Below, in pieces: positions 21,946 through 31,267 of a DNA stretch of 64,000 nt. This DNA comes from Bifidobacterium primatium (GTDB lineage: Bacteria > Actinomycetota > Actinomycetes > Actinomycetales > Bifidobacteriaceae), in the NCBI RefSeq assembly GCF_002802875.1, contig NZ_PEBI01000001.1, forward strand, positions 1 to 64,000. Reading direction: 5' to 3'. The position numbers and the translations under genes are program-made. How positions within the stretch are numbered: the first letter of the stretch is position 1; each line of letters starts with the position of its first letter. The notes under the pieces were generated by a model that saw only the letters and a list, made by a program, of their open reading frames with translations, was not told the origin of the DNA and did no database searches.

Positions 21946-22050
21946 AAAAAAGACTTCCACGTGTGTGGCCGCAAGGCGTGGGGAACGAAGACGTACAAAG
22001 GTACGTCGAGTTCCCCGCAACGCGGCGGACACTCCGTGGAAGTCTTTTTT
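21946..22050 (-). terminator. Two-tier hairpin terminator of ldh (element copy C)
   Basis: A 16-bp perfect outer stem (21946-21961 with 22035-22050) ends in a six-base A/T run, giving a T-tract in both directions. Inside lie an interrupted middle stem (GGGGAAC at 21980-21986 with GTTCCCC at 22010-22016) and a 7-bp apical hairpin GACGTAC/GTACGTC with loop AAAG at 21990-22007. It starts one base after the ldh stop codon. The apex is nearly identical to that of the glnA element. Confidence 0.85.
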
Positions 22051-22051
22051 A

Positions 22052-23014
22052 TCAGAAGCCGAACTGGGCTGCGGTCTCCTTCAGCGTCTCGGCCGAGCGC
22101 TTGAGGGCGGCGAGCTCGCCGTCGGAAAGCGGGGTGTTGATGCGGGTGTTGACGCCCTGACGGTTCAGCACGGAGGGGACGGACATGCACACGTCGGAGA
22201 TGCCGTGGAAGTCGTCGAGGAGCGAGGAGACGGGGAGGATGCGGTTGGAGTCCTTGAGGATGGACTCGATGATGTCGACGCCGGACATGGCGATGGCGTA
22301 GTTGGTCGCGCCCTTGCCTTCGATGATGCGGTAGGCGGCGTTCTTGACCTCCTGGTGGATCTCCTCGCGCTTGGCGGCATCGAGCGGCTCGTGACCGGGC
22401 AGTTCCTTCCAGTCGCACATGGGAACGCCACCGATGGTGGCGGAGGACCACAGCGGGACTTCGGAATCGCCGTGCTCGCCGGCGATGTAGGCGTGGACGT
22501 TCTTGACGTTGACACCGGTCTGCTGGGCGATGAGGAAGCGCAGTCGCGCGGAGTCGAGGTTGGTGCCGGAGCCGAAGATCTGGTTGGCGGGCAGGCCGGA
22601 GATCTTCATGGAAACGTGGGTGACGATGTCGACGGGGTTGGTGACGAGCATGTAGATGGCGTCGGGGGCCACGTTGACGACACCGGGGATGATCGACTTC
22701 ATGATGTTGATGGTGGCGCCGGCGAGGTCCAGTCGGGACTGGCCGGGCTTCTGACGGGCGCCGGCGGTGATGACGACGACGTCGGCATCACGGCAGATCT
22801 CGACGTCGTCGGAGCCGCTGATCGAAACCGTGGGATAGAAGCTGGAGCCGTGCTGCATATCCAGCACCTCGGCCTCGACGCGCTTGGCGGCGATGTCCTC
22901 AAGGACGATTTCGCGGGCGATACCGCGCTGTGCGGCGGCGAAGGCCATGGTCGAGCCGACCGCGCCTGCACCGATGATCGCAAGCTTTGTGGGACGAATC
23001 GGTGAATTTGCCAT
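22052..23014 (-). CDS. ldh: L-lactate dehydrogenase
   Basis: Reduces pyruvate to L-lactate with NADH, regenerating NAD in the bifid fermentation; bifidobacterial LDH is typically activated by fructose-1,6-bisphosphate. The 320-aa protein has the NAD motif [10 protein letters not shown], the substrate-binding [11 protein letters not shown] (Arg), [10 protein letters not shown] and the catalytic-histidine motif [10 protein letters not shown]. The start ATG has AGAGAGGTG upstream, and a TATAGT hexamer on the gene strand (23080-23075) may be the -10. It is monocistronic and ends in a two-tier terminator. Confidence 0.95.
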
Positions 23015-23225
23015 AAAGGCACCTCTCTTTGAAATTGCTTTCAACCGTGACAAATCATGCCAACTTCGGGAAACACTATATCTACACCTTCTGACTATTG
23101 ACAGAGACGGACCGAACATTCATCCCAATATATGAACCGGCATGTGAACGCTCACAGAACTCGCGGCAACGCCATGCCGGACCCTCCGGCCTCAGTGAGA
23201 TCCCCGGCAGCGGAACGGTGGGAGA

Positions 23226-24740
23226 TCACACCGCATCGTCGATGGAGCGGTCGACGATACGGGCGGCGAGATGACGGTCGACGTCGGCTTCGATGTATAC
23301 GCCCTCGGGCCGGTAGTCGATGACGGAGACGACGCCGTTCTCACGGACGGACGACAGCAGCGATCCCGCATCATAGGGCAGCAGCGCGGTCACATGCACG
23401 TCGGGAACGGGAAGCAGCGCCTCGACGGCGGCCAACAGATCGTCAATGCCCTCGCCGGTCGCGGCGGAGACGATAAAGGCGTCCGGAGCGAGCTCGTGCA
23501 GCCTCGCGCGGGTGGCCTCGTCAATCATGTCGGCCTTGTTGAAGGCCAGCAGACGCGGAATGCCCTCCACGCCGGCGATGTCGGCGAGCACGTCGTTGAC
23601 GGCGTCGATCTGCGAGAACGGGTCGGGATGGGACCCGTCGACGACGTGAAGGATGACGTCGGACTCGCCGACCTCCTCCAACGTGGATTTGAACGCCTCG
23701 ACCAGCTGCGTGGGCAACCGTCGCACGAAACCGACGGTATCGACATACGTGTAGATGCGGCCGTTGGCCGACCTGGCACGTCTGACTGCGGTGTCGAGCG
23801 TGGCGAACAGGGCGTTCTCGACCAGTTCCGCCGACCCGGTCAGACGGTTGGTCAGCGAGGATTTGCCGGCGTTCGTGTATCCGACGACGGCGACGGACGG
23901 CAGCGCATTGCGTCGGCGGGAGCCGCGCTTGACCTCGCGGGCCGGAGCCATCTGACGAATCTGGCGACGCAGACGCGCCATGCGCGTGCGGATCACACGA
24001 CGGTCCATCTCGATCTGCGTCTCGCCCGGCCCTCGCGAACCGATGCCGCCGGCCTGACCCGCCGCCTGACCGCCGGCCTGACGGGAGAGCGAGCCGCCCC
24101 AGCCGCGCAGTCGCGGCAGCATGTATTCCAGCTGGGCGAGCTCGACCTGCGCCTTGCCCTCCCTGCTGGTGGCATGCTGGGCGAAGATGTCGAGGATGAC
24201 GGCGGTGCGGTCGACGACCTTCACCTTGGCCACGTCCTCAAGACCTCGTCGCTGCGACGGAGGAAGATCCGCGTCCACGACGATGGTGTCGGCGCCGAGC
24301 TCGTCGACGATGCGCGCGATCTCCTTGGCCTTGCCCGAACCCACATAGGTGGCCGAATCCGGTCGAATGCGATGCTGCAGCAGACCGTCCATGACTTCGG
24401 CGCCGGCGGTCTGCGCCAATGCGGCGAGCTCGCGCAGCGACTCCTCGGCCTTGGCCTGCGTGGTCTCCTGGCTCGACCACACGCCGACGAGCACCACACG
24501 TTCGAGCCTGACCTTGCGGTATTCGACCTCGGTGACGTCCTGCAGCTCACCGAGTCCGGCGATGTGCTTCAGCTGGTTGCGTGATTCGCGCTCGGCCCAC
24601 TCCTCGCCGTCGCCGCCGACCGGCACGGCGCCGGTATGGTCCTGCAATACCTCGGAATGCTCCGCAAGCACCTCCGACGACTCGTCGCCACGGTCCCCGA
24701 AGGGCTCGAATTGCTGTTGCTGCATGCTGGTCTTTGCCAC
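23226..24740 (-). CDS. hflX: Ribosome-associated GTPase HflX
   Basis: GTPase that binds or splits 50S subunits, often under stress. The 504-aa protein has the HflX N-terminal domain (TYVGSGKAKEIA, DADLPPSQRRGLED), the glycine-rich linker RGPGETQIEMDRR, and the G domain with G1 GYTNAGKSSL, G3 DTVGF and G4 NKAD. An acidic N-terminal extension of about 60 residues is present. The start is taken as the GTG at 24740 because AGAGGTG precedes it by 5 bases; the next in-frame GTG upstream lies inside that ribosome site. Confidence 0.92.
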   Translation of the reverse strand: MAKTSMQQQQFEPFGDRGDESSEVLAEHSEVLQDHTGAVPVGGDGEEWAERESRNQLKHIAGLGELQDVTEVEYRKVRLERVVLVGVWSSQETTQAKAEESLRELAALAQTAGAEVMDGLLQHRIRPDSATYVGSGKAKEIARIVDELGADTIVVDADLPPSQRRGLEDVAKVKVVDRTAVILDIFAQHATSREGKAQVELAQLEYMLPRLRGWGGSLSRQAGGQAAGQAGGIGSRGPGETQIEMDRRVIRTRMARLRRQIRQMAPAREVKRGSRRRNALPSVAVVGYTNAGKSSLTNRLTGSAELVENALFATLDTAVRRARSANGRIYTYVDTVGFVRRLPTQLVEAFKSTLEEVGESDVILHVVDGSHPDPFSQIDAVNDVLADIAGVEGIPRLLAFNKADMIDEATRARLHELAPDAFIVSAATGEGIDDLLAAVEALLPVPDVHVTALLPYDAGSLLSSVRENGVVSVIDYRPEGVYIEADVDRHLAARIVDRSIDDAV

Positions 24741-30788: not shown

Positions 30789-31057
30789 GAATCGTCTCTC
30801 TATTCGTGATTTACTGCGTTTTCCTCTGGATACCGTCTCCACGGTAATTCACGATGGCGCCCCCATGCGTCATGTTGCCGTGAGATTCCCCACATCGCAC
30901 TGTGAGCTAGCCGACGTTATCAGGACGATATACGACCGGAGAATCCCGATCAGAGGCCGGCCTCTCGGCATGGATTGATTGGTTTGATACGGATTGAATG
31001 GATTTGTGGGTCCGGACCATTGAATAACCGTGGACCAGACGGCTCATATGGAGGTTG
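30789..31057. other. Long intergenic region upstream of the FNT gene
   Basis: About 270 bases without a gene, probably holding the FNT promoter. It contains a perfect palindrome AGAGGCCGGCCTCT (30952-30965) and short GGATTGA repeats around 30971-31005. I cannot assign a function. Confidence 0.4.
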
Positions 31058-31148
31058 GTGGGTCTGTGACGTACATGGGGACGTCGAAAACCGGCTCCTC
31101 GTGAAGCGTTAGGCCCACTTCCCCATTCTTGCAATCGGATAGACCCAC
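31058..31148. repeat. Hairpin element copy D
   Basis: Outer arms GTGGGTCT (31058-31065) and AGACCCAC (31141-31148) enclose an apex at 31068-31087 that matches the ldh element at 17 of 20 bases (GACGTACA then ACGTCGA). It lies just beyond the glnA element. Confidence 0.55.
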
Positions 31149-31165
31149 AAACCCCTGGAAAAATA

Positions 31166-31267
31166 AAAATCCGTTTCACGTGTGCGGTATCGGACATTGG
31201 AAGACGAAGGCGTACAACAGTACGTCGAGTCTTCCAATGTCCGATAACGCTCCGTGAAACGGATTTT
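31166..31267 (-). terminator. Two-tier hairpin terminator of glnA (element copy E)
   Basis: A 15-bp perfect outer stem (31166-31180 with 31253-31267), an 18-bp perfect inner stem (31188-31205 with 31229-31246) and a 7-bp apical hairpin GGCGTAC/GTACGTC with loop AACA are stacked. On the glnA strand a TTTTTATTTTT tract follows. It lies two bases from the glnA stop codon. Confidence 0.88.

Follow-up and report, generated by a model that had tools for sequence, protein, structure and literature searches.

A palindromic repeat family with a conserved apex includes the hairpins after ldh and glnA in Bifidobacterium primatium

The attC sites of integrons carry the boxes RYYYAAC and GTTRRRY, and the guide RNAs of TnpB and IscB join a folded scaffold to some 16 nt that match a target close by. 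Among repetitive extragenic palindromic (REP) sequences, PMC3733652 describes the super-families GTAG and CGTC as 20-40 bp long with an unpaired terminal GTAG or CGTC tag, and stem-loops after stop codons in general are treated in PMC1590033. Here, we describe two long hairpins that follow the genes ldh and glnA in the first 64,000 nt of Bifidobacterium primatium contig NZ_PEBI01000001.1 (RefSeq assembly GCF_002802875.1, forward strand; hereafter, the window). They combine a near-identical apex with stems that differ, and belong to an apparently undescribed family of palindromic repeats.

The reading that we favor, at a probability of about 0.6, is that this family consists of non-autonomous palindromic mobile DNA repeats that inserted at stop codons and were sometimes co-opted as terminators. 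An element would insert at the 3' edge of a gene, and its far arm would be written at insertion, about 15-17 nt of flank being copied back onto itself to complete the palindrome. Folded on the antisense strand relative to the gene, the apex would serve as the recognition core of a putative mobilizing activity; in elements such as those of ldh and glnA, with an A/T run at the end of the outer stem, the hairpin could have been co-opted as a terminator; and later turnover would proceed by gain and loss of tandem copies.

The two hairpins and their relatives in Bifidobacterium

Window positions of the features are given below, with R1 denoting the covariance model of the element; both window copies are among the R1 seed sequences, so that their R1 bit scores are self-matches.

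21943 to 22053, plus strand (G-U strand, antisense to ldh): whole ldh hairpin, from the fold and an R1 match at 21945-22052 (110.7 bits)
21943 to 21961, plus strand: far arm of the ldh outer stem, pairing with 22035-22053
21987 to 22009, plus strand: ldh apex, the conserved core
22035 to 22053, plus strand: gene-side arm of the ldh outer stem
22052 to 23119, minus strand: ldh gene
21913 to 21933, plus strand: probable decayed copy beside the ldh element, recognizable in its 5' half only (core at 21913-21930 with 2 mismatches) and absent from R1 matches at E up to 1
21800 to 21851, plus strand: possible second decayed copy beside ldh, a partial, weak R1 match (E 0.19)
31164 to 31270, plus strand (G-U strand, antisense to glnA): whole glnA hairpin, R1 match of 94.4 bits
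31166 to 31180, plus strand: far arm of the glnA outer stem, pairing with 31253-31267
31206 to 31228, plus strand: glnA apex, the conserved core
31253 to 31267, plus strand: gene-side arm of the glnA outer stem
31270 to 32616, minus strand: glnA gene

The structure proposed in an initial annotation of this DNA was confirmed. Both elements have perfect, gene-specific outer stems (19 bp at ldh, where the stem extends into the TGA stop codon of the gene, and 15 bp at glnA), inner stems that differ between them, and a 23-base apex with 20 of 23 positions identical. The outer-inner junction is common to both, reading TGTGTGG or TGTGCGG on one side and CACTCCGTG or CGCTCCGTG on the other. In plus-strand orientation, the apex stem is GRCGTAC-NNNN-GTACGTC, the second pair being A-U in ldh and G-U in glnA; the annotated claim that this change keeps pairing holds on the plus strand and fails in the glnA mRNA, where, with the genes on the minus strand, an A.C mismatch takes the place of the G-U pair. 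Folding z-scores against 200 dinucleotide shuffles per strand were -11.1 and -10.8 for ldh and -13.1 and -10.6 for glnA. Two other perfect inverted repeats in the window, at 19819-19867 (20-bp arms, 9 nt between) and 59490-59531 (16-bp arms, 10 nt between), are without the apex.

With up to 3 mismatches allowed, the apex pattern had 5 matches in the window compared with 0.25 expected. These fall at four sites, a single one of which matches on each strand; the site at 31068 was judged to be chance. Across the genome of origin, the apex-stem pattern at a loose setting produced 42 matches compared with 27 per strand for its reversed control, and the reversed control of a longer apex form produced 0; a survey of 20 stretches plus the window yielded 36 cores, of which 3 were judged to be chance and 33 were kept. 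That two ordinary terminators might be alike by chance is a notion to which the A/T-rich stem ends of both window copies lend some color, but the genome copies and the clean reversed-pattern control refute it, and with the excess of matches in the window it is scarcely credible.

An alignment (A1) was built from 28 of the 33 cores, with elements cut at 108 nt, and analyzed with RNAalifold; the 5 decayed copies were excluded, which raises its covariation relative to the whole set. The result comprised 36 pairs, of which 26 show a change in both partners, a covariation score of 0.604 versus 0.207 in shuffles, and 236 double-change cells; shuffles averaged 77 such cells, and slid partners gave 54-73. 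The initial annotation had held that the likeness is not chance and had proposed to look for further copies with covarying stems, and this was borne out: the stems covary strongly in A1, and R1, at a threshold of E up to 0.001, matched 47 times in the genome of origin and in all eight genus relatives (29, 34, 1, 43, 43, 45, 31 and 33 matches). The genus is taken as Bifidobacterium because contigs of that name have these elements behind the same genes. Within the genus, the element measures about 105 nt, its apex and junctions being fixed and its stems variable but paired, and the preceding genes include ldh, glnA, nusG, guaA, aspS, murA, nrdE, araA and araD (names read from translations). In a phylum sample of 396 genomes, the apex pattern was present in 2, the genome of origin and one with a single one-mismatch site. 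In a subfamily comprising L014, L017 (at 3148), L019 (2047), L021 (2347) and L005 (5728), two direct copies of CCGAGG, one on either side of the apex, take the place of the inner helix; they are conserved but not self-paired.

Most elements in the genome of origin, as placed by a simple gene caller, adjoin a stop codon, and the gene that ends there is antisense to the G-U strand. Over 129 permissively chosen rows, which take in decayed and reverse-strand matches, the gene-side neighbor within 60 nt was antisense in 68 cases and sense in 2, and a sense gene ended within 60 nt on the opposite side in 14. Some elements lie inside operons, for example between nrdE and nrdF. Behind a upp-like gene, two elements in inverted orientation are separated by 45 bp (L022, 1700-1980, in G000) and recall REP dimers, and inverted pairs with the same 45-bp spacing also occur in G004 (C18) and G005 (C12).

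Rfam 15 had 0 matches in the window, and at 24 loci searched with E up to 1 no family reached its gathering cut-off at the elements; plant and animal microRNA-precursor models overlap the L071 hairpins far below cut-off (35.9 bits versus 140, and lower). In the accessible portions of the literature on the motif, on repeats in Bifidobacterium and on comparable palindromes, nothing was recognized as this hairpin family, nor is the motif described in the available parts of PMC8632094 and PMC2864571. Plasmids gave no match to the ldh element as sole query and phages none to the glnA element as sole query, and a scan of viral contigs gave one stretch.

Mirrored gene ends, turnover and the folded strand

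The gene-side arm of the outer stem is the 3' end of the gene itself or the bases just after it, and the far arm is its inverted copy. The analysis of these mirror arms covered Bifidobacterium, where 95 elements have a recognizable outer stem and 79 of them lie beside a gene stop (the stop search ran on the mRNA-sense side only and is thus no test of orientation). The outer stem has a median length of 15 nt that varies little with the distance from junction to stop. In 43 of the 79, the stop codon lies within the paired stretch; 37 pair beyond it, 15 of them by at least 8 coding bases, and in 17 elements the junction lies no more than 2 nt after the stop codon, so that the gene-side arm is coding sequence. 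Arms swapped among elements scored at least 10 in 7 of 1881 trials compared with 66 of the 95 real elements, a contrast somewhat flattered because the real scores, and not those of the control, were maximized over junction placement.

The order of events can be read at nrdE. In G003, a distant relative (fourfold difference about 0.8) that provides a good, imperfect empty site, nrdE has no element, ends in CVSCTL and is followed 16 nt on by the next gene start. CVSCTL is kept in G001, G007 and G008, where the element stands directly after TGA and the last codons recur, inverted, in its far arm, apart from a single mismatch in G008. Because G003 has this ending without the element, the gene end is older than the mirror arm, and we infer from the sequences that copying of the gene end was the mechanism by which the arm arose. 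In the other five genus genomes, nrdE ends in CTYACVV or CTYACVL and the element lies further from the stop; the change in the redox-active tail of NrdE between these two groups of four and five genomes shares its location with the elements (L285-L293).

A different account would make the hairpins a structured RNA motif of mRNA 3' ends, a terminator or stabilizer whose apex binds a protein or ribosome component and whose stems change by compensatory substitution. Their position right after stop codons and the strong stem covariation agree with it, as do the T-rich (A/T-rich) stem ends of the ldh and glnA elements and the T runs of at least 4 at the 3' end of the outer stem in 24 of the 95 elements. 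The ldh and glnA hairpins probably do end transcripts, and a terminator pattern scan called small sites within both, the whole hairpins not being called. Against an mRNA motif, 71 of the 95 elements have no T run, and, provided that nrdF lacks a promoter of its own, the elements between nrdE and nrdF suggest that termination is no general function of the family. Where the initial annotation had offered a structured RNA or a mobile-derived element used as a terminator, the mobile origin is favored, and use as a terminator is unsupported for the family at large.

The tempo of stem change also bears on compensatory substitution. At ldh, G001 and G008 differ by 3.5% at fourfold sites (n=114), and their stems, both still paired, are widely different. 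Judged by eye, the order of the two kinds of copy, P and D, is P-D-P in G001 and D followed by a remnant of P in G008, so copies at ldh were exchanged through tandem arrays and not changed base by base. An A-B-A order is repeated at L032, L050, L096, L130 and L160, and, of five loci with a gene ending in GMKY, four (from 4 species) have an element and the fifth has none. Usually the copy of a tandem array nearest the gene is intact and those further out have decayed. Of 27 arrays, 26 have a gene-side copy with a better fold than the distal mean (medians of -64.4 versus -43.9 kcal/mol; Wilcoxon p 1.5e-7, with arrays from related species treated as independent, which they are not). Fresh insertion at the gene would produce such a pattern, as would selection confined to the first hairpin, and the good preservation of that first hairpin counts in favor of an mRNA motif.

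Wobble pairs indicate which strand folds. In A1, the apex has G.T 25 times versus A.C 4 times, all in a single column (the rest of the apex, at 3:4, shows no strand bias); the inner helices have a mild excess of 18 versus 8 (p 0.08) and the outer stem none (20 versus 19). Outside Bifidobacterium, the count is 96 G.T versus 14 A.C over 19 hairpins, a ratio that includes repeated conserved wobble positions in related hairpins. The excess of G.T over A.C makes the strand antisense to the gene the better-folded one, and a purine-rich GAA/GA internal loop is conserved on this G-U strand. A better-folded antisense strand suits recognition of folded DNA, as in attC, or an antisense RNA, and not a pure mRNA terminator.

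A functional RNA read from the antisense strand, either a small RNA or a terminator of antisense transcripts at the gene border, would account for the conserved G-U pair, the purine-rich loop, the better folding of that strand and the orientation of the elements relative to their genes. It would leave the gene-end mirror arms unexplained; moreover, the elements abut the stop of the sense gene and not the end of a convergent gene, and a scan that covers promoters of the sigma-70-like type only found none near the ldh and glnA elements. We consider this account improbable. The mRNA motif, to which the retention of the ldh and glnA positions across the genus adds some weight, is set back by these wobble counts, by the divergence of the ldh stems between G001 and G008, by far arms that mirror conserved coding ends and by the exact dispersed repeat in one genome described below; we hold it to be unlikely, if still worth serious thought.

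The apex beyond Bifidobacterium

An 18-base form of the apex was found in at least 117 stretches of genome contigs, and the apex loci listed include, besides Bifidobacterium, metagenome-assembled genomes (MAGs) labelled Clostridia, Oscillospiraceae, Vicinamibacteraceae, Nitrospirota, Helicobacteraceae, Gammaproteobacteria and others. By our estimate, about seven hits to this form are expected by chance in that collection, so that single hits, such as one Streptomyces locus, prove nothing. With up to 1 mismatch, the apex pattern matched 14 of 15 genomes, with 1 to 45 copies each, and the reversed pattern matched 0 in all 15; G003 has no apex match at this setting. The apex is multi-copy in MAGs labelled Clostridia, Vicinamibacteraceae, Nitrospirota, Helicobacteraceae and Gammaproteobacteria, the labels outside Bifidobacterium depending on MAG binning. 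Its distribution is patchy among the family members of one Clostridia carrier (present in 3 of 6 genomes), and the stems that surround it are unrelated from lineage to lineage. After 76 of 97 non-Bifidobacterium cores had been set aside as short, 21 long hairpins were placed relative to genes: 12 end at an antisense gene stop, 3 at stops on both sides, 4 at a sense gene stop only and 2 at neither.

In L118, L106, L105, L094, L068 and similar Clostridia loci, the apex hairpin lies within a larger unit of roughly 250 nt that is apparently branched, as judged by eye, and reaches the cut-off of no Rfam family. G020 has 45 apex matches, some in tandem about 240 bp apart.

In G017, a Vicinamibacteraceae MAG with 22 apex copies, the apex is central in a 183-nt unit with the ends CTAGCCCGCAAATT and AATTTGCGGGCTAG. 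This unit is near-identical at 8 sites with distinct flanks and has exact ends, two copies being cut by contig ends, and at least 4 shortened units have the same ends without the apex. Such shortened palindromes with CTAG ends (L247, L249, L267, L282) look as central deletions in palindromes would leave them, and a related end sequence, CTAGCCCGGATATTT, is present at several contig ends. The CTAG could be a target duplication or part of the unit ends, there being no empty site among the G017 loci. The unit is a clean dispersed repeat of the kind known as miniature inverted-repeat transposable elements (MITEs). Mobility is well supported in G017; in Bifidobacterium, we infer it.

Beyond the limits stated above for the arm-swap contrast, its restriction to one genus, the empty nrdE site and the wobble counts, several observations weigh against mobile repeats as the explanation. 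The ldh 3' element is full in 7 of 9 genus genomes, incomplete near a contig end in G002 and absent from G003, and the glnA 3' element is present in 8 of 9, again not in G003, and reversed at about 45 nt distance in G007; the two are thus retained in most of the genus, as expected of a useful element. The gene-side copy is the single most stable in 23 of 27 arrays (exceptions L005, L009, L012 and L048), and in a test of 15 chosen arrays L009 and L034 have no gene-end mirror. No strain-level gain or loss of copies was seen, one genome per species having been searched. Raw Bifidobacterium counts reverse the wobble ratio, with 49 G.T versus 86 A.C, mostly at three internal-loop positions. Exact dispersed copies were found in one MAG only, G017, and the end-site loci examined there include no gene-bearing partner, although such a partner may be missing from the assembly, since many of the end sites lie at contig ends. 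The 25 clusters listed of genes shared among non-Bifidobacterium loci comprise transporter, housekeeping and other common families, and no mobilizing enzyme.

We further propose, tentatively and at somewhat less than even odds, that the elements form a separate class of mobile DNA present in several phyla: an apex-defined element, active as a folded strand, that would write the inverted last 15-17 nt of its host gene upon insertion at the stop codon and so give each copy a gene-specific stem. If mobile repeats are the correct explanation, the family would have escaped notice because the constant part is only about 20 nt long and almost every copy has stems of its own. Long gene-specific hairpins would then be made in one step and not by slow compensatory change, which bears on the reading of covariation among genome copies as proof of RNA function, and gut bacteria would be among the carriers of a strand-specific DNA hairpin signal with a putative partner enzyme.

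Comparison with described systems

With REP and REPIN palindromes (REP as characterized in PMC3733652), the hairpin family has in common that it consists of dispersed non-coding palindromes, often intergenic and clustered, in many phyla, and that some REP (CGTC) are likewise without a known transposase. Unlike REP, with their short conserved stems and terminal tags, the hairpins are about 105 nt long, their stems differ in each copy, and the tip and junctions are what is conserved; of the 28 aligned elements, 5 have GTAG or CGTC among the 14 outermost nt at one end or the other, in no fixed place. The Y1 transposase (PF01797) is present in 0 of 8 element-rich genus genomes and, size and ends differing as well, an origin from REP and their associated transposases (RAYT) is unsupported in the genus of the window. 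PF01797 does occur in the one-element genome G003 and, beyond the genus, in 7 of 13 carriers, where a REP/RAYT origin thus retains some room. An element borne by a reverse transcriptase is likewise unsupported in the genus, PF00078 being absent from all 9 genomes; it was found in 7 of 12 carriers outside.

The roughly 16-nt match adjoining a folded structure resembles a TnpB/IscB scaffold, but TnpB (PF07282) is absent from 4 of the 8 element-rich genus genomes, that of the window included (among all nine genus genomes, absent in G000, G001, G004 and G005; present in G002, G003, G006, G007 and G008), which leaves a TnpB guide scaffold unsupported for those four carriers. Integron attC, in part as presented in PMC2727003, offers the likeness of a long, variable-stem hairpin after a stop codon, in which the folded strand that counts is apparently the one antisense to the gene. 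Unlike attC, the hairpins have no attC boxes and no cassette array and follow single-copy housekeeping genes; boxes were found in 0 of 28 elements on either strand, a test of low power given a shuffled mean of 0.02, and no integrase search was made. A common logic links these three systems to the family, namely strand-specific folded DNA after the stop (attC), palindromes after genes (REP) and a match of about 16 nt (TnpB). Their named features are nevertheless missing, so that known folded-strand systems already fail for the genome of the window, and membership in any of them is very improbable.

Stem-loops and intrinsic terminators after stop codons, as described in PMC1590033, share with the hairpins their stability, their place close after the stop and, in a minority, a T-rich tail; the hairpin family differs in being multi-copy, in its conserved tip and junctions, in mostly having no T run and in a stem that runs into coding sequence. 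From MITEs, the Bifidobacterium copies are set apart by the absence of a common end sequence, by a gene-specific outer stem and by conservation of the center and not the ends. Dispersed near-identical copies with exact inverted ends were found in G017 alone and not in Bifidobacterium, and it is there that the 183-bp unit, with its shortened derivatives, most resembles a MITE.

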